Counted from the stretch's first letter, positions 44,606 to 53,776 are shown. The stretch is 64,000 bases of DNA from Desulfurobacterium atlanticum (GCF_900188395.1 NZ_FZOB01000006.1:35062-99061), one strand, 5' to 3'. A program made the numbers and translations. Notes: generated by a model not told the origin, from the sequence alone.

Positions 44606-46181
44606 AAAAAAGAAAATAACCGGATATGCTAAGGAAAACAACAGTTTCTCCGTAGAAACAGGAAATGAACAGATAACATTCGTTTTAAAAAACCCAAACG
44701 GTATAATTTTAAAAAAAGAAAAAATTCAGGATAAAACATACCTTAAAAAATTCAGAAACCTGTTTATAAAATCGGTCAGCACCCTGAATAAAGATAGAGT
44801 TATCATATTCAACTTGATAAAAATTTCAGTATCTGGAAAAACAGAAGAGTTTAATCTCATAATCGAACTGACAGGAAAGCACAGCAACGTAATCATAACA
44901 GACAGTAGCAAAAAAATTCTATACACATTTAAAGAAGTGGAATCTACTGTAAGAAATATAAAAATAGGAGAAGAATACATTTTGCCCCCAAATGAAAAAA
45001 AAGAATTTAAAGAAATAAAGTTTGGAGAAGTTACACCTCAGGGAATTGAAAAAAAACTTTACAGGTTTATAAAAGGTTTATCTCCTTTAAACTGTAAAGA
45101 GATAGCGTTCTATGTTAAAAACGGACTATCCCTTGAAGAAGCTTACCAGAAATTTATAACAAATCACAAAAATTCAAACATAGCTTTTCTCTACTTTGAA
45201 AATAAGAAGCCTAAGTTTTTAACAACTTTTAAATATGAAAGCCTGAAAGATTTCAAATATATAGAATTTAAGGACTCTCCATCTTTTATAAGCGCATGGC
45301 AATACTTTACTGAACAATTTCATATAGAAATGCAGATAGATACATTGAAATCAAAGCTTGTAAAGCTGATAGAAAGAAAATTAAAAACAATAGATGAAAA
45401 ACTATCAAAAATGGAAAATCCCGATAACCTGCTTCAAAAAGCAAAAATTCTTAAAAAGGCAGGAGAACTTCTTAAATATAATCTTCACAAAATAAAACCG
45501 GGTGTAAATAAACTAACACTTACAGATTATGAAACAGAAGATGATTTAACTATTACTGTTAACCCTGCAAAAACTCCCCAGCAAAATCTGAACGATATTT
45601 TTAAAAAAGCAAAAAAACTTGAAAACAAAGCTGTGTTTGAAAAGACAGAAAGAGAAAAACTTCTATCACAGAGAAAATTTTTAGAAGCTCTAAAGGAGAA
45701 AGTTTTTTCCTTAAACTCTATTCAAGAACTCCAGGAAATAGAAAAGCTTTTAACAACACAAAGAGAGAAAAGTAAAGAAAAGGAAAAAAACTTTCCCTAT
45801 AAAATAACTCTTCCTTCTGGTAAACAGCTTTTGATAGGTAGAAACAGAGTTGAAAATGAAATAATATCTTTAAAACTATCAAATCCATGGGATATATGGT
45901 TTCACGCAAAAGAGACACCAGGTTCCCATGTATTGTTAAAGTTAGACAAAGGAGAATCTCCATCTGAAGCAGATATAAAATTTGCAGCATCTGCAGCAGC
46001 TTTTTTCAGTAAAGGAAAAAACTCTGGCAAAATAAAAATTGACTACACACCTGCAAAGTATCTCAAAAAACCACCGGGAACACCATCAGGATACGTAATT
46101 TACAAAAATGAAAAAACCGTTGTAATAGATTCTTCTGAATTTGAAAAATTTCTAAAAAACAACAACCTTCTCCGGAAATAA
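44553..46181 (+). CDS. rqcH: NFACT family protein, RqcH/Rqc2 homologue (FbpA type)
   Basis: Ribosome quality-control factor that binds stalled 50S-peptidyl-tRNA and directs alanine tailing in studied bacteria. The 542 aa have the NFACT-N domain with the DR pair at Asp81-Arg82 (LNKDRVIIFN), a helical coiled-coil middle (about 255-400) and the NFACT-R domain NPWDIWFHAKETPGSHVLL. AAGGAG precedes the ATG inside the DUF2229 gene. Its 3' end overlaps convergent truB by 30 bases. Confidence 0.88.
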   Translation: MDALYIEKVSEELNQLFKKKKITGYAKENNSFSVETGNEQITFVLKNPNGIILKKEKIQDKTYLKKFRNLFIKSVSTLNKDRVIIFNLIKISVSGKTEEFNLIIELTGKHSNVIITDSSKKILYTFKEVESTVRNIKIGEEYILPPNEKKEFKEIKFGEVTPQGIEKKLYRFIKGLSPLNCKEIAFYVKNGLSLEEAYQKFITNHKNSNIAFLYFENKKPKFLTTFKYESLKDFKYIEFKDSPSFISAWQYFTEQFHIEMQIDTLKSKLVKLIERKLKTIDEKLSKMENPDNLLQKAKILKKAGELLKYNLHKIKPGVNKLTLTDYETEDDLTITVNPAKTPQQNLNDIFKKAKKLENKAVFEKTEREKLLSQRKFLEALKEKVFSLNSIQELQEIEKLLTTQREKSKEKEKNFPYKITLPSGKQLLIGRNRVENEIISLKLSNPWDIWFHAKETPGSHVLLKLDKGESPSEADIKFAASAAAFFSKGKNSGKIKIDYTPAKYLKKPPGTPSGYVIYKNEKTVVIDSSEFEKFLKNNNLLRK

Positions 46182-47006
46182 TATACCTTTTTTAACACTA
46201 CCAACACCTAAAAACTCTCCGTTTTCATCAACAACTACATATTTCCCATCAGGAAACTGAATATTAAATCTTCTACCATTTTGAAACCATACAGCACAAG
46301 TGTCTTTCAAAACAAGTTTGTCAAATGGTAAAACATCCTGTATAGGTTTTAAATAAGTTTTTATGTTTTCCCTGGTTAAATCATTTAAAGGTACAGCTTC
46401 CTCCACAGATATATTATCAACAGAAACTCTCCTTAAAGCAGTAACAACAGCATCTGTCCCTGCCGCTATACCGATATCATGTACAAGAGACCTTATATAT
46501 GTACCTGAAGAGCAACAAACCTTTAGAGCAAATTCTGGAAATGAAAAATCCAAAATATCAATATTGTAAATTTCAACAACTCTTGAAGGAAGAGAAACCT
46601 CCTCTCCACTTCTTGCAAGTTCGTAAGCCCTCTTTCCTTTAATTCTAACAGCCGAAAAAGAGGGGGGCGTCTGTTTTATCTTTCCCTTGAATTTCTTTAT
46701 TATGGAAAGAAGCTCCTTTTCATTTAGATTTTTTGTCGGAACTTCCTTAACATTTCCATCTATATCATAAGTATCACTTGAAAACCCAAATTTCCCTACC
46801 ACCTCATAACACTTGTCAAGCTTTAAAAGGTACTCACCAAAACGGGTAGCCTTCCCAACAGCAATAATAAGAAGACCGGTAGCGAGAGGATCAAGAGTTC
46901 CAGTATGGCCAACTTTCACTTTAGAAGGCAAAAGCCTTCGGATATGCCTCACAGCATCAAAGGAGGTAATACCCGAAGGCTTATCTACAAAAAGAAATCC
47001 TGTCAT
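46152..47006 (-). CDS. truB: tRNA pseudouridine(55) synthase
   Basis: Makes pseudouridine 55 in the T loop of tRNAs. The 284 aa begin TGFLFVDKPSGITSFDAV and contain KVGHTGTLDPLATGLL with catalytic Asp39, the FSAVRIKGKRAYELAR segment and SSGTYIRSLVHDIG. A short C-terminal PUA-like part follows. It overlaps the surface-protein gene upstream by 4 bases, so it is apparently the last gene of the pil operon. Confidence 0.95.
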   Translation of the reverse strand: MTGFLFVDKPSGITSFDAVRHIRRLLPSKVKVGHTGTLDPLATGLLIIAVGKATRFGEYLLKLDKCYEVVGKFGFSSDTYDIDGNVKEVPTKNLNEKELLSIIKKFKGKIKQTPPSFSAVRIKGKRAYELARSGEEVSLPSRVVEIYNIDILDFSFPEFALKVCCSSGTYIRSLVHDIGIAAGTDAVVTALRRVSVDNISVEEAVPLNDLTRENIKTYLKPIQDVLPFDKLVLKDTCAVWFQNGRRFNIQFPDGKYVVVDENGEFLGVGSVKKGILFPEKVVVF

Positions 47007-49078
47007 CTATTCTCTTTCTTTCTAAAGTAGATAAATCCTAAAGTCACAAATGGAAGCAATAAATCAAATCCAACAGTCCCTGAAGGTGAAATTGAGCAGG
47101 AGCCTCCAGATTCTGGAATATCTTCCGTTGTTACCGTTTCGTTGGTTGTATTATCCGAAGTAGTTGTCATAGTTGTAGTCGTAGCACCTGTAGTACCTGT
47201 ATTTGTAGCTGAAGTTGTACTATTAGTACTGACAATGGTTTGTGTTACATCAACAACATTAGCTTTTAAATCAACAGGTATAACAGATAACGTTTGATTA
47301 TTTGTGAAAATCTTCATAGTTTCATTAAATAAACCGGAAACCACGGGAGTAAACTCAATCTTCAATATTAAAGCATCCTCAGAAGAAAGGAGAGCAGGAA
47401 AAGCAATTTCTTCCCCAGTGTACAAGTTATACGCTACAATATTCACTCCCTTAGAAGCAAGCTCGTTAGAATTCAAGAAAATTAAGATTGAGGATGTTCC
47501 ATTATTCTCAACATAAATTATCTCTTCTTTAACTTCACCTACAGTAACATTTCCAAAATCTATTTTTGTAGTGGAAACTGTAATAGAAGATGGTGAAAAT
47601 GCAACATTCGCATTTAACGTTACAGATACCATCGGAAACTGAGATACACTGGTGTAAATGTTTATAGGAATGCTCACATTTCCTAAATCTTTCGCTGTAT
47701 AGCTAAACTGAACAGTCAGTTCCTCACCAGGTGCTAATGTAACCCCAGCTACACCCGTCTTTAATGTAACTCCTCTATTGGCAAGTTCGTCACTGTTTAC
47801 TCCCGTTAATGTTATGTCAGCCGTTCCATTGTTGGTGATTATAAACGCTCCCTCTTTAAGCTCTCCTATCTCCATGTCCCCTAAGTCTATGCTCGTAGTA
47901 TTAACCTTTAAACTGTAAGTCCTATCGCTAACATTCGCATTTAACGTTACAGATACCATCGGAAACTGAGATACACTGGTGTAAATGTTTATAGGAATGC
48001 TCACATTTCCTAAATCTTTCGCTGTATAGCTAAACTGAACAGTCAGTTCCTCACCAGGTGCTAATGTAACCCCAGCTACACCCGTCTTTAATGTAACTCC
48101 TCTATTGGCAAGTTCGTCACTGTTTACTCCCGTTAATGTTATGTCAGCCGTTCCATTGTTGGTGATTATAAACGCTCCCTCTTTAAGCTCTCCTATCTCC
48201 ATGTCCCCTAAGTCTATGCTCGTAGTATTAACCTTTAAACTGTAAGTCCTATCGCTAACATTCGCATTTAGTAGAATAGTTTTTTTACTTAAATCCTGAC
48301 TATTTATAAAAATCTCAAAAGGAATAACAACTGTTCCAGAGTTCACAGGAGTATATTGAAGAGCAACTGTCAACTTATCACCTGGTAGCAGAGTAATTGG
48401 AGCATTAGCATCTACAAAACCTGAAACACTATCCTGATATATAGTGGTAATGGAAACCCCTTTCTCTGCAAGTTCATCAGTATTAAAGCCTGTTATCGTT
48501 AAACTTGTTGTTCCGTTATTAACGATGAAAAACGATTCCTGATTTATATCTCCCACAATAAGATTTCCAAAGTCAACAGACGCAGGAACAGAAAGAGACG
48601 CACTTCCTGAAACAACCGTGGCAGAGCAGTTTATAGTTGCAAACGTTTCTGTAGAGTTTGTTGTTATAAGCTCAAACGAAGTAGAATAAGTCCCTGTTTC
48701 AACATACTGTTCGGGGAATCCCACAACCACTTCAAGTTGCTCTCCCGGTTGAACTAAAATTGGATTATTTACCTGCCCGGTATCAGAGTTAAAATCAACT
48801 CTTGCAGCATTCCCTTGAGAATCTATATGGATAATATCCTGTATATAAAAAGGCGATTCTTTAACCTCAAGAATATTTGAAATAGAAAAATTATCACTTC
48901 CGGTATTTTTCAGGTAAACTACTTCATAGCTTTTCTCTACAGCAGTGGCAACATTCCCAAAATTAACATCTATACTTGCACCAGAAGAACCTACATTTAA
49001 CGTATATGCAGCATACACACTGTTTGTCATAAAAAGAAACATAAAAAAGCTTACAATTTTTATTAAAAACTTTCTCAT
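47003..49078 (-). CDS. Secreted repeat protein of ASH/choice-of-anchor-D-type domains with C-terminal sorting-like tail
   Basis: A 691 aa exported protein. The signal peptide (residues 1-23, ending VYAA) is followed by five Ig-like domains of about 110 aa, each with a DFGNVxVGE-type strand, an NNGTxxxxI turn and an NSDELAxxGV segment, like ASPM-SPD-2-Hydin/choice-of-anchor D domains. Domains three and four (275-383 and 384-492) are identical. A Ser/Thr/Asn-rich linker (about 610-655) leads to GGSCSISPSG, a hydrophobic stretch (DLLLPFVTLGFIYF) and RKKENR, a tripartite tail like CTERM signals. The gene overlaps pilQ by 4 bases. A surface or pilus-associated role is inferred. Confidence 0.8.
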   Translation of the reverse strand: MRKFLIKIVSFFMFLFMTNSVYAAYTLNVGSSGASIDVNFGNVATAVEKSYEVVYLKNTGSDNFSISNILEVKESPFYIQDIIHIDSQGNAARVDFNSDTGQVNNPILVQPGEQLEVVVGFPEQYVETGTYSTSFELITTNSTETFATINCSATVVSGSASLSVPASVDFGNLIVGDINQESFFIVNNGTTSLTITGFNTDELAEKGVSITTIYQDSVSGFVDANAPITLLPGDKLTVALQYTPVNSGTVVIPFEIFINSQDLSKKTILLNANVSDRTYSLKVNTTSIDLGDMEIGELKEGAFIITNNGTADITLTGVNSDELANRGVTLKTGVAGVTLAPGEELTVQFSYTAKDLGNVSIPINIYTSVSQFPMVSVTLNANVSDRTYSLKVNTTSIDLGDMEIGELKEGAFIITNNGTADITLTGVNSDELANRGVTLKTGVAGVTLAPGEELTVQFSYTAKDLGNVSIPINIYTSVSQFPMVSVTLNANVAFSPSSITVSTTKIDFGNVTVGEVKEEIIYVENNGTSSILIFLNSNELASKGVNIVAYNLYTGEEIAFPALLSSEDALILKIEFTPVVSGLFNETMKIFTNNQTLSVIPVDLKANVVDVTQTIVSTNSTTSATNTGTTGATTTTMTTTSDNTTNETVTTEDIPESGGSCSISPSGTVGFDLLLPFVTLGFIYFRKKENR
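47603..48256. repeat. Perfect tandem duplication, two copies of 327 bp, inside the surface-protein gene
   Basis: Bases 47603-47929 and 47930-48256 read identically by eye, including third codon positions, and the first 14 bases of the unit recur again at 48257. The unit is 109 codons, exactly one domain, so the frame is kept. Neighbouring domains of the same protein are clearly diverged, which marks this duplication as recent or homogenised. Confidence 0.9.
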
Positions 49079-51015
49079 CCCTCGCCTCCACTTCCTTCAG
49101 ATGAAATAACTTTAGGTGTGATAAATATAAGAAGCTGAGAGTTACTGTTCTTCACAACTTCATTTTTAAACAACCAGCCAAGAAGGGGTATTTTAGAAAG
49201 TAACGGAACTCCAGCTTTACTTTTTGACTTTTCCTGCTCATAAATACCACCTATTACAAGGGTATCTCCATTGTTAACCATAATCTGAGTCTTAACATTT
49301 CTTGTATCAATGGCCGGTTCAGTATTTCCTGTTATGGCAACATAATCATAATTTGGCTTATCTTTCTTAATTTCAAGGTCAAGCATTATTTTATTATCAT
49401 TTGTAACATGAGGTTTAACCTTTAGAATAAGAGAAGCCTTTTTAAATTCAGTAGAAATGTTTCCATTTTCATCTATCACTTTATATGGAATCTCCATACC
49501 CTGCTCTATAGTAGCTTCTTTATTGTCAAGAGTCACAACTTTTGGTTGAGACACAAGCTTACCATTACCTGTTAGCTCAGATGCTTTAATAGCAAGCTCA
49601 GCCCTTAAACTTTGATCCTTCTTCAAAATTCCAACAGCAAGAGTGTAGGGTTGGGACGGCATTGTGGCAGCATTGCCAATAGAACCTGTAGCAACTCCAG
49701 GAATCGTAACAGCATCATTAGCCTGAAAACTTCCCGCCTTATAAAGATTTGAACCTGAACCCCAGGCTGCAAGACTCCAGTTTACACCAAGCTGTTTTTC
49801 TAAACTTGTATCTACAAGCACTATTTTTGCCTCTATAGAAACCTGTCTGGTCATTTTATCAGTATGCTTTATTATCTCCATAATTTTTTCATAGTGAGAT
49901 TTAGTAACTTTCAGAATAAGACTGTTTGTCCTTTCATCCACTTCCACAAGTTCTCTTGTATTCAATTTTTTTCCTTTCTTCTCCTCAGCATTAAGGTATT
50001 TTTCTATAATTTTTGCCACCTCTTGTGCATAAGCATAGTTAAGGGGAACAATATATGTATGAATCGGTTCTGTAGCCAATTCTTCAAGAATTTTCTGTTT
50101 TGAAGCTATACGTATATAGTCTTTTTTCTTTATGTAAGTGAAACCAAGAGGCTCAACCACTGCTTTCAAAGCTTCTTCCCAGCTAACTGGAGTAAGAAAT
50201 CTTATAAAAACTGTTCCTTTCACTTCAGGGTCAAAAACAACATTTAAACCAACAATATCTGCTATAGCCCTTACAACTGTCCTTACATCCGCATTGGTAA
50301 AATCAAGCTTTATTTTCTTGGTTTCTATATTTTCATTAATTATTTTTCCTTGAACCCCATCTGCAACTTTTTTCTGAGATGGTGATAAAAATTTAATCTC
50401 ATATTTACTTCCTCTATTAAGCACTTGAACAGGAAAATCTTTTTTAAGGAGAACAACAATGTAAGATTTCTTTCCTGTTGAATAGGTTTTTATCTTATCA
50501 ACAAAACGGGAATTTAACAATTTCTCACTTTCTTTAAGAACTGCAGTATCAGAAGAGAATACAATCTGCCTCCCACTTTTTTTAAACTTGAAGGGAACAT
50601 TTGTACCGGTATCAATAATAAAACTATCGTGTGTTTCATAAGTTTTAAACATTGCAAACGTAGGTGAAGCAATAACAAAAGTTGTAGCTTTTGGAAAAAC
50701 AGTATATGAAACATTAATTTTATTAACCGGAACTATCTTCACTTCAGTACCATTTTCTAAAGGAACAATATCTATTATCTTTATCAGATCATCTCTATAA
50801 CCATAAACTTTTCTCTTATCAGCAATACAACCTTCAAGAAAAAAGTTATAAGAACCTTCGTTTTTTTTCTCTTTAACCTGACAATTACCATCAGTTTTAA
50901 GAACCAATCTGAGCTTGCCATTTATGTTTAAAAGGTTAATATCGGTAATCTTCGCAGCAAAAGAAGGAGATGCCAGAACTGTTAAAATGGTTAATGTATT
51001 TATCAATTTCCTCAT
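49075..51015 (-). CDS. pilQ: Type IV pilus secretin PilQ
   Basis: Outer-membrane secretin channel for type IV pili. The 646 aa have a signal peptide, an AMIN-like beta region (about 20-170), an STN/N0 segment (DFTNADVRTVVRAIADIVGLN, near 230), an N1 domain with VDERTNSLILKVTKSHYEKI, and the secretin core with LVSQPKVVTLDNKEATIEQG and VPLLSKIPLLGWLFKNE. The C-terminal LLIFITPKVI is typical. It overlaps pilP by 4 bases. Confidence 0.93.
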   Translation of the reverse strand: MRKLINTLTILTVLASPSFAAKITDINLLNINGKLRLVLKTDGNCQVKEKKNEGSYNFFLEGCIADKRKVYGYRDDLIKIIDIVPLENGTEVKIVPVNKINVSYTVFPKATTFVIASPTFAMFKTYETHDSFIIDTGTNVPFKFKKSGRQIVFSSDTAVLKESEKLLNSRFVDKIKTYSTGKKSYIVVLLKKDFPVQVLNRGSKYEIKFLSPSQKKVADGVQGKIINENIETKKIKLDFTNADVRTVVRAIADIVGLNVVFDPEVKGTVFIRFLTPVSWEEALKAVVEPLGFTYIKKKDYIRIASKQKILEELATEPIHTYIVPLNYAYAQEVAKIIEKYLNAEEKKGKKLNTRELVEVDERTNSLILKVTKSHYEKIMEIIKHTDKMTRQVSIEAKIVLVDTSLEKQLGVNWSLAAWGSGSNLYKAGSFQANDAVTIPGVATGSIGNAATMPSQPYTLAVGILKKDQSLRAELAIKASELTGNGKLVSQPKVVTLDNKEATIEQGMEIPYKVIDENGNISTEFKKASLILKVKPHVTNDNKIMLDLEIKKDKPNYDYVAITGNTEPAIDTRNVKTQIMVNNGDTLVIGGIYEQEKSKSKAGVPLLSKIPLLGWLFKNEVVKNSNSQLLIFITPKVISSEGSGGEG

Positions 51016-51446
51016 TTTACTTCCCCCGTATTGAAATTAATCTCCATAATATCGGAAACCAGTTTTTTGCCAACTTTTTTATAAATTTTTAAAACTAACT
51101 TCGCAGGCTCTATCTTTAAAATTTTTGCGTTAACATCAACAGGATCTCCAGAAGAAAAGATATATACTTTACCTGTTTGAGGGTCCACAGCAACTGCTTT
51201 TAAAGAGTTTCCATCTCCTATAACCCCTTCAAAAATTAGCTTCTCTAAGGGTGGTGACTTAAGTCTAAAAACTCTTGGTTTTTCAATTACAGTTACTTTT
51301 TCCGGCTTTTTCTTCTGTAATTGTTTCCTTTTCCATTCTGAAATTTCTCTTAGCTTTACAGGATTTAAGAAGGGATCTATATAGGCAAAAGTGTTTAAAT
51401 TCATTAAAAACATTAAAAAGAAACTTAATACAAAAACTTTTCTCAT
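51012..51446 (-). CDS. pilP: Type IV pilus assembly protein PilP-like
   Basis: Periplasmic link between PilN/PilO and the secretin. The 144 aa have a hydrophobic leader (KVFVLSFFLMFLMNLNTFA), a Lys-rich linker and a small beta domain starting LEKLIFEGVIGDGNSLKAVA. It lacks a lipobox Cys, which many PilP proteins have. A GTG one codon earlier is possible; both share the same GAGG. Position between pilO and pilQ supports the call. Confidence 0.82.
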   Translation of the reverse strand: MRKVFVLSFFLMFLMNLNTFAYIDPFLNPVKLREISEWKRKQLQKKKPEKVTVIEKPRVFRLKSPPLEKLIFEGVIGDGNSLKAVAVDPQTGKVYIFSSGDPVDVNAKILKIEPAKLVLKIYKKVGKKLVSDIMEINFNTGEVK

Positions 51447-51451
51447 CACAA

Positions 51452-52087
51452 TTACCTCTTTAACATATATGCATTAATCTGCATATTTACCTGGACTGTA
51501 TAAGGATACAGATAAACTTCTTTCTTAACAGTTTTATCATCTGTTCTCTCTTCAACCTTTTTCTTCACAGGGTCAAGAGCAACCATGCTTAAATCTCCAA
51601 TGGTAAGCACCCTTTTCGCTGAAACAATATGCTCACACCACTTAATAAAATTTGGATAACGAGTGCTCATAACTACACTGTATCCGATTTTAGTATAGTA
51701 TTTTTTAGTCTCTTCTCTGCCTCTTTGGATAAGATCTATACGAATAGTTCCTGTATCTTGAGCAACCGATTTTATAATATTGCTTACATCCTCTTTACCT
51801 GTTGGCAATTTCGCTTCCAATTTCGAAATTTCTTCTTCAAGCTTTGATATCTCCTTTTTAAGAATATCCCGCCTTTTCTCAACCAGTTTTAATTTTGCAA
51901 CTCTTGCCTTTTTCCGATTTACCTGATTGGAAAGTATAGCTATCTTTTGATTGATTGGATCTATAACGTTCATTTTATAAACAAACGCAACTACAAAAAG
52001 TAGAATTAAATATCCTATCCATTTTTGCCATTTTGGAATCTCAGCCCATCTTTCTTTTAAGTCATCAATCAATCCTTCAAAAGCCAT
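51452..52087 (-). CDS. pilO: Type IV pilus assembly protein PilO
   Basis: Inner-membrane alignment-complex protein. A single membrane helix (about 22-38) follows a cytoplasmic tail, then a coiled coil (about 50-95, rich in Lys and Glu) and a ferredoxin-like periplasmic domain containing NFIKWCEHIVSAKRVLTIGDL. The 211 aa match PilO. The start overlaps the pilN stop by one base (TAATG). Confidence 0.9.
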   Translation of the reverse strand: MAFEGLIDDLKERWAEIPKWQKWIGYLILLFVVAFVYKMNVIDPINQKIAILSNQVNRKKARVAKLKLVEKRRDILKKEISKLEEEISKLEAKLPTGKEDVSNIIKSVAQDTGTIRIDLIQRGREETKKYYTKIGYSVVMSTRYPNFIKWCEHIVSAKRVLTIGDLSMVALDPVKKKVEERTDDKTVKKEVYLYPYTVQVNMQINAYMLKR

Positions 52088-52638
52088 TATTTCATCTCCA
52101 CAGTAAAGGAAAAGTGATAATATTTATAGGTTGCTCCCGTCTCTTTTGATTTATACTCCTCATAAGAGGTCTTTTTAAATTTCACCTCTCCTATCTTCTC
52201 TTCAACATTTTTAAGGAATTGAGATACAAGCTTCAAATTGTAAGCATTCCCCGCTATATAAATCTTTTTTCCATCCTGTTTTAAATTTTCCAACCACACC
52301 CCATACGGAATGTTTTTCCTATCTGCAAAAAAGTATATAAAAGACGGAACCTGTCTCTCTTTATCAAGCTTAGAAATCACATTAAGCTTTTCCTTCAGAG
52401 TCTCCCTCACTTTTATCAATTTTTTCTCTTCTGCTTGAATTTTCTTTAATCTTGCAAGTTCTCTATCAAGACGGATTATCTCCTGTTTTAGAAATCTCTC
52501 TTTACTTTTCAACTGTCCTGTATACCAGAACAAACCTCCAAAGGTGATAAAAAGAAGCAAAACAGCTAAAATTATGTCAGGTTTAAGCAGCTTTTCTATA
52601 AATGTTTCTTCTCTTTCTAAAAAGTTAAATCTTAGCAT
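52087..52638 (-). CDS. pilN: Type IV pilus assembly protein PilN
   Basis: Bitopic inner-membrane protein whose N-terminus binds PilM. It begins MLRFNFLEREE, matching the short conserved PilN motif, then has a membrane helix (about 26-42), a coiled coil and a periplasmic domain with VWLENLKQDGKKIYIAG. A GTG (52647) and ATG (52644) lie upstream in frame; the ATG at 52638 is favoured because GGTGA ends 5 bases before it. It overlaps pilM by 14 bases. Confidence 0.88.
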   Translation of the reverse strand: MLRFNFLEREETFIEKLLKPDIILAVLLLFITFGGLFWYTGQLKSKERFLKQEIIRLDRELARLKKIQAEEKKLIKVRETLKEKLNVISKLDKERQVPSFIYFFADRKNIPYGVWLENLKQDGKKIYIAGNAYNLKLVSQFLKNVEEKIGEVKFKKTSYEEYKSKETGATYKYYHFSFTVEMK

Positions 52639-53683
52639 TTTCATCACCCTTATATCTTAAACTTAAACCACAAGATATTGCGTATTCTTGATTGTTATCT
52701 TTACCATCAAAATAAAAAGGTTTCCCTATCTCAATATTTTTATTTGTACAATCTTTCATTAAAGAAATAAGATTTTTCTGTTTTGAACCTCCACCATACA
52801 CAAAAATTTCCTCTACATTTTGTTCAAACCTGTCCTTAAAATTATCTATTGCCCAGATAGTTTCTGTAGCTATCTTCTTTATTATCTTAGAAATAACTTC
52901 TTCAAACGCTTTCTCATAAGAGACAGAATCAAGATTCTCCCCCAATTTCAAGCGTTCCGCTTCTTCGTAGCTTATCAAATATTCCTTTTGAAGTTGTTCC
53001 GTTATACTATTACTACCCATCTCTATATTGCGAGTTAAATAGGGAAATCCCCCGAAACTTATAACAATTTTTGTAAAAGTGGCTCCTATGTCAACAAGAC
53101 AAACAGGATCTATCACTTTATCTGGATAGTTGAGATAGAACTGATTATTAAGAGCAGCAGGTTCAATATCTATAACCTGAACTGCAAGTCCTGCACTATC
53201 AGCTAAAGCAACATACTCTTCAAGAATGTCCCTTTTAACAGCAGCAATAGCTATATCAATATTTTCTTTTGTTATAGACACGGGCAAAACTTTATATTTA
53301 ACAACTACTTTACCTATATCTTCTTCTGAAAGAATACCCTGTATATGCTCTAGTGCAACATCTTCTGGATTCTCTGATGGAGAAGCACTTATTACGGTAT
53401 AAAAACACAAAGCAAGGGGAATATGCAAAGCTACATTTTTAGAATCTGGAGCTACTGACTCAACAGTTTCTTTAATTAAGGAAGAGAGTGAAACAAAATC
53501 TATAATTTCAGTACCAACTATAAAAGATTCGCCATATTCCCTTTTCCCAAAACTTACAATATGATAGGAACCTTTACCTTCTTTCAACCTGCAAACTTTA
53601 ACTGATGAAGTTCCTATATCAACCCCTGTATAAAGAGACTTTCTTCCGGTAAAAACACCTATAAAGCTATCAAAATTCAGCAT
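52625..53683 (-). CDS. pilM: Type IV pilus assembly protein PilM
   Basis: Cytoplasmic actin-like ATP-binding protein that recruits PilN. The 352 aa show the phosphate-1 loop TGVDIGTSSVKVCRL, the phosphate-2 region LVDIGATFTKIVI and the FVYGGGSKQKNL adenosine motif. Met codons at 53701 and 53695 lie upstream, but the ATG at 53683 has a GGGGAAAGG run before it. It is the first gene of pilMNOPQ, transcribed from the promoter at 53747-53776. Confidence 0.9.
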   Translation of the reverse strand: MLNFDSFIGVFTGRKSLYTGVDIGTSSVKVCRLKEGKGSYHIVSFGKREYGESFIVGTEIIDFVSLSSLIKETVESVAPDSKNVALHIPLALCFYTVISASPSENPEDVALEHIQGILSEEDIGKVVVKYKVLPVSITKENIDIAIAAVKRDILEEYVALADSAGLAVQVIDIEPAALNNQFYLNYPDKVIDPVCLVDIGATFTKIVISFGGFPYLTRNIEMGSNSITEQLQKEYLISYEEAERLKLGENLDSVSYEKAFEEVISKIIKKIATETIWAIDNFKDRFEQNVEEIFVYGGGSKQKNLISLMKDCTNKNIEIGKPFYFDGKDNNQEYAISCGLSLRYKGDENAKI

Positions 53684-53746
53684 ACCTTTCCCCATATGCA
53701 TTTATAAAAATTATTTATTTTCCTAATATATAACCCTATATGCAGA

Positions 53747-53776
53747 ACTATAATAAAACTTTATATATTATGTCAA
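53747..53776 (-). promoter_or_regulatory. Sigma70-type promoter of the pilMNOPQ operon
   Basis: On the minus strand TTGACA (53776-53771) overlaps the aroA stop codon. An 18-base AT-rich spacer and TATAGT (53752-53747) follow. The predicted transcript start near 53740 leaves a leader of about 57 bases before pilM. Confidence 0.7.

Follow-up and report, generated by a model that had tools for sequence, protein, structure and literature searches.

A putative accessory Ig-repeat protein with a Cys-type, sorting-like C-terminal tail encoded between pilQ and truB in some Desulfurobacterium

The family name of the choice-of-anchor D proteins (NF012200) reflects their varied C-terminal anchors. MYXO-CTERM proteins of Myxococcus carry a C-terminal tail that is cut by the protease MrtX in a Cys-dependent manner, and their transport to the cell surface by the type II secretion system (T2SS) has been proposed (PMC11980579). 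Lipidation by Lgt has been proposed to precede cleavage by the myxosortase, Lgt being the leading candidate for the acyl-transferase that prepares tails of this type (PMC11980579). For JDVT-CTERM, the protease MrtJ and its target are reported to be encoded side by side (PMC11980579).

We analyzed a 64,000-nucleotide stretch of Desulfurobacterium atlanticum DNA (the window; NZ_FZOB01000006.1:35062-99061, positions counted from its first nucleotide), which lies on contig C6 of a 1.74 Mb genome (G000) and in which a pilus operon includes the gene for a 691-aa exported protein, here called X. Comparisons of sequences make it rather likely that X, which some Desulfurobacterium encode within their pilM-N-O-P-Q-truB operon, is an accessory, Cys-tail-sorted surface protein and not a core part of PilMNOPQ.

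Operon layout and domains of protein X

The genes of the operon lie on the minus strand. Upstream of pilM is a promoter-like site on the same strand (TTGACA-18-TATAGT, 53747-53776) with 11 of 12 matches, in a region where such sites occur at chance level. Three genes pass their Pfam gathering scores: pilM (52625-53701; PF11104, 109.3 bits), pilN (52087-52647; PF05137, 36.4 bits) and pilO (51452-52087; PF04350, 39.9 bits). PilP, for which searches of NCBIfam and Pfam models gave no significant match, was assigned by position and by homologs in relatives (51012-51449). The type IV pilus secretin gene pilQ (49075-51015; TIGR02515, 336.7 bits against a cut-off of 284.35) shares four bases, ATGA, with the X open reading frame (47003-49078) at 49075-49078, as the preliminary description had it, and X shares another ATGA at 47003-47006 with truB (46152-47006; TIGR00431, 232.8 bits), which by synteny is the gene conserved on the downstream side of pilQ across the family. 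Both overlaps are kept in the same-genus metagenome-assembled contig JALSLT010000116.1 (G012; locus L123), which encodes a homolog of X. These are the only two X genes known, and a PilQ-based search for related loci returned, besides this one close relative with X, distant Rhodocyclales PilQ proteins. Other genera have a secretin gene, together with two more secretion genes, immediately upstream of pilM. Elsewhere in the D. atlanticum genome (L062, contig C7:72000-90000), a T2SS gene cluster with a second secretin is followed by the gene for a 1485-aa predicted lipoprotein.

The N-terminus of X reads directly as an ordinary predicted Sec signal peptide (residues 1-23, 49010-49078, minus strand), with cleavage between NSVYA and AYT and no lipobox. 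The choice-of-anchor D model NF012200 matches five stretches of the protein with 110.7 bits (cut-off 45), and X also passes the HYDIN/VesB Ig (PF22544) and ASH (PF15780) models, which confirms the domain type first proposed; a search of PDB sequences gave one weak match, the flagellar protein FAP65, which is consistent with ASH/HYDIN-type domains. The AlphaFold2 model, made from X and its one homolog, was too poor for a fold search (mean pLDDT 47.9, pTM 0.27). An addition to the preliminary description is an exact tandem DNA duplication of 341 identical bases with a period of 327 (47603-48270, minus strand), which makes Ig domains 3 and 4 identical and may be an effect of assembly. Beyond the repeats, at about residues 612-655 (47114-47245, minus strand), lies a linker rich in Thr, Ser and Asn, which is a low-confidence coil in the AlphaFold2 model. 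The G012 homolog has 360 aa and keeps domains 1-2 and the tail, with 80% identity over the last 60 residues of X; domains 3-5 are missing from it, which suggests that the number of domains changes quickly.

The C-terminal tail and its candidate protease

The tail of X (residues 657-691; 47003-47110, minus strand), SGGSCSISPSGTVGFDLLLPFVTLGFIYFRKKENR, follows the pattern GGSCSISPS-hydrophobic-RKK, with an SGGSC signature that contains Cys661, a hydrophobic stretch, and RKKENR before the stop. The JDVT-CTERM model (NF033191, cut-off 27 bits) gave 17.5 bits for the whole protein and 21.9 bits for the tail alone, and no match to X was found with MYXO-CTERM (TIGR03901) at E<=5 or with GlyGly-CTERM (TIGR03501). 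With none of the named CTERM models does the tail reach the cut-off, which we count against a sorting explanation. Searches of the genome with the 35-residue tail and with a five-tail profile found one clear copy, X itself; two other weak JDVT-CTERM matches were rejected for want of the GGC signature.

Among 136 Aquificota genomes, a tail class of the form GGGGCSxxPS-TM-RRKK was identified at E<=1e-3 in 20 of the 22 Desulfurobacteriaceae genomes, the E-values being flattered for genomes that had supplied tails. At this threshold, the tail profile search did not find the class in the same-genus genomes G010 and G011. Its bearers in relatives, named from reading their sequences, are for the most part large multiheme cytochromes and other surface proteins, those of the SBBP/PKD type among them, besides a papain-like protein. 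Further candidate substrates, surface proteins of the SBBP-repeat/PKD-like kind whose Cys-type tails are variants, were seen at L132 (G007:C92) and L130 (G012:C14). In an alignment of 19 tails, the Cys-Ser pair and an Arg in the basic end are invariant, and the Gly just before the Cys is nearly so. A profile built from 17 tails of relatives, leaving out X and its G012 homolog, still placed X (15.2 bits) at the head of all 928 stop-to-stop frames in the window, and it listed no control among 2000 with shuffled tails at E<=10. These results support placing the tail in a genuine class of tripartite signals at the C-terminus, much as first described; further copies, which the preliminary description proposed to look for in this genome, were found on proteins of relatives. 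MYXO-CTERM is matched weakly by 14 of the 19 family tails (best E 8.7e-6), JDVT-CTERM by eight, including X, and GlyGly-CTERM, again weakly, by six (best E 0.0017). Because of its Cys signature, the tail appears to resemble the MYXO-CTERM/JDVT-CTERM signals of the myxosortase kind more than those of the GlyGly-CTERM/rhombosortase kind. The preliminary description had looked to a rhombosortase or similar enzyme; the Cys signature points away from the former, and a candidate for a dedicated protease of the myxosortase type was found.

Two CPBP proteins of the genome exceed the Pfam cut-off, one on contig C3 and one on contig C4. The C3 protein keeps the motifs EExxxR (PEEIFFRG) and HxxxN (HFSYN), as does its G012 ortholog (EEIFFRG, HLIYN), and matches the myxosortase models MrtP (78 bits), Mrt_core (71), MrtS (63), MrtC (61) and MrtJ (54.4, cut-off 75), each below its cut-off. 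That it misses the 100-bit cut-off of Mrt_core (NF040914), which no genome of the phylum passes, counts against it; it is nevertheless a plausible candidate for the enzyme that processes the tail of X. Between the two genomes that have them, both X (dN/dS about 0.25 and dS 0.70 over the first 275 codons) and the C3 protein appear to be under purifying selection. In the C4 protein, encoded upstream of lspA, neither EExxxR (which reads QAVFFK) nor the middle His is preserved, and such a decayed, lspA-linked copy is present in all four genomes of the Desulfurobacterium genus set. The intact C3-type gene was found in G000 and G012 only, near citE-like and TonB-receptor genes; G011 keeps the citE-like and TonB genes, and the next gene there encodes an ATPase.

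Within the genus, G000 and G012 have X as well as the C3-type protease, and G010 and G011 have neither; this co-occurrence speaks for the sorted-protein reading and is limited by being a comparison of two against two closely related genomes. Of the 16 family genomes with a completeness of 90% or more, the tail and an Mrt_core match (E<=1e-14) occur together in 14, and two have neither (Fisher p 0.008), these two being congeners and so not two independent events. All 22 family genomes divide into 18 with both, two with the tail only, both of them incomplete, and two with neither (p 0.026). The enzyme of G007 has lost its middle His.

The tail could instead be an ordinary, unprocessed membrane anchor that makes X a periplasmic repeat protein tethered to the inner membrane. 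The length of its hydrophobic stretch would suffice to cross a membrane, and the single copy in the genome, the low CTERM scores and the separation of the X gene (beside pilQ and truB on C6) from the protease gene on C3 all agree with such an anchor. We nonetheless regard it as unlikely, as the Gly-Ser-Cys signature, beyond mere hydrophobicity, is conserved on unrelated proteins in 20 genomes, and the presence and absence of the tail match those of an intact Mrt-like protease.

Of the 16 genomes with a family-type CPBP gene, 15 have this gene directly ahead of a co-directional lspA in the locus fetched, G009 (L100) being the exception, and the four decayed copies likewise precede lspA; the CPBP genes concerned are at L061:4739-5242 on contig C4 of D. 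atlanticum and in loci L101-L119. This adjacency, which alone is no proof, fits the proposal that Lgt lipidates the tail before a myxosortase cleaves it, and we found no report of it in the titles and abstracts that a literature search brought up. A family with its myxosortase-like gene directly upstream of lspA lends the Lgt idea support that is independent and testable, with D. atlanticum as nearly a one-protease, one-substrate case. A broader scheme, which we put forward tentatively and hold to be doubtful, is that the Desulfurobacteriaceae have their own Cys-type C-terminal sorting, with a protease gene paired with lspA; lipoproteins maturing at the C-terminus and those maturing at the N-terminus would then follow one pathway, with lipidation by Lgt. 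In this genus, on that scheme, the protease linked to lspA would have decayed, and another protease would serve mostly a single substrate, X, as a displayed component of the type IV pilus.

The variable slot between pilQ and truB

Wherever the contig allows reading among the 22 family genomes, the order pilM-N-O-P-Q-truB is conserved, and the slot between pilQ and truB varies. In the 19 genomes counted (G014 and G016 end at a contig edge and G008 was left out), X fills the slot in G000 and G012, a lipobox protein of about 200 aa fills it in seven (G002, G004, G006, G017, G018, G019 and G021, the contig of the last ending after the lipoprotein and before truB) and a shorter version of the latter in G007, and in nine the slot is empty (G001, G003, G005, G009, G010, G011, G013, G015, G020). 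X therefore stands beside pilQ in one of 21 relatives, short of the conservation of the PilMNOPQ core, and truB directly follows pilQ in two of the three same-genus relatives. The preliminary description had also taken translational coupling to the secretin gene as a sign of a role in pilus assembly; the four-base overlap is real, and the variability of the slot makes the link to the secretin weak. Since X is missing from most relatives that have the pilus operon, it is gene order that points to a pilus function. The slot thus admits different exported proteins, X being an optional one, and the pilQ-truB junction is a site of variable accessory proteins that are exported.

The other occupant bears on whether X might be a dedicated, pilotin-like or secretin-associated component that supports the secretin in place of the lipoprotein of relatives. 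That lipoprotein has conserved cysteines besides its lipobox (L043, L047, L050, L051, L052, L053, L056), and all seven of its strong profile matches in the 136 phylum genomes fall within the slot, which favours this reading; X, too, would be lipid-anchored if its tail is processed. Yet no homology could be detected between the domains of X and the lipoprotein (hhalign probability 0.1), and the nine genomes with an empty slot indicate that pilQ needs no occupant there. We consider a support role for X improbable; an accessory surface protein encoded in the pilus operon is a better description of it than a part of the secretin.

X could also have nothing to do with pili and be a surface protein whose gene came to lie 3' of pilQ because the junction tolerates insertions, which would deny its pilus role and be compatible with sorting of the tail. 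The patchy presence of X fits this, as does its dS between G000 and G012: pilQ (1.35) and pilO (1.86) have higher values, as though the move of X were the later event. Against it, both ATGA overlaps are kept in the two genomes, and every occupant of the slot is exported and bears either a Cys-type tail or a lipobox, a pattern suggestive of shared selection related to the envelope. We take such an insertion to be a serious possibility, if one that falls short of an even chance.

A proposed pathway and comparison with known systems

On the accessory, Cys-tail-sorted reading, X would be exported by Sec and form a chain of roughly five Ig-like domains (choice-of-anchor D/ASH) while its C-terminal tail holds it in the inner membrane. 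The Cys of the tail would be lipidated, the myxosortase-like CPBP protein of contig C3 would remove the hydrophobic and basic parts, and the lipid-anchored product would go to the cell surface, perhaps through the T2SS. Its position between pilQ and truB would allow co-expression with the pilus machine, so that X might plausibly act in adhesion or at the base of the pilus. In our reading, X is a surface stalk, probably with a lipid anchor, that is expressed together with the pilus. Judged from its sequence, X looks like a protein with a sorting-type tail inside a pilus operon, in a genome with a protease of the myxosortase kind, its pilus role itself being unproven.

Like the secretin pilotins (PilF/PilW and GspS type), X is an envelope protein encoded with a secretin gene; unlike them, it has no N-terminal lipobox, is far larger, consists of Ig repeats and is missing from most relatives. 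It passes the choice-of-anchor D model well. To our knowledge, no choice-of-anchor D protein has been placed in a pilMNOPQ operon, and a literature search found no published report of one.

JDVT-CTERM/MrtJ is alike in that its model is the best named match of the X tail, that D. atlanticum has one clear substrate and that the CPBP protein matches MrtJ. It differs in that both tail and protease score under the cut-offs and that X and the CPBP gene, on different contigs, do not show the adjacency of substrate and mrtJ. The MYXO-CTERM/MrtX system of Myxococcus (PMC11980579) differs in its signature, which is of the GCGC type as against GGGGCSxxPS in the Desulfurobacteriaceae, in the lack of a MYXO-CTERM match for X, and in its dozens of substrates per genome, compared with few, and one clear one in D. 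atlanticum, in this family of the phylum Aquificota. The two systems share a tripartite tail with an invariant Cys, a TM stretch and a basic end, a CPBP-family protease with EExxxR and HxxxN, exported surface substrates, and the presence of a T2SS.
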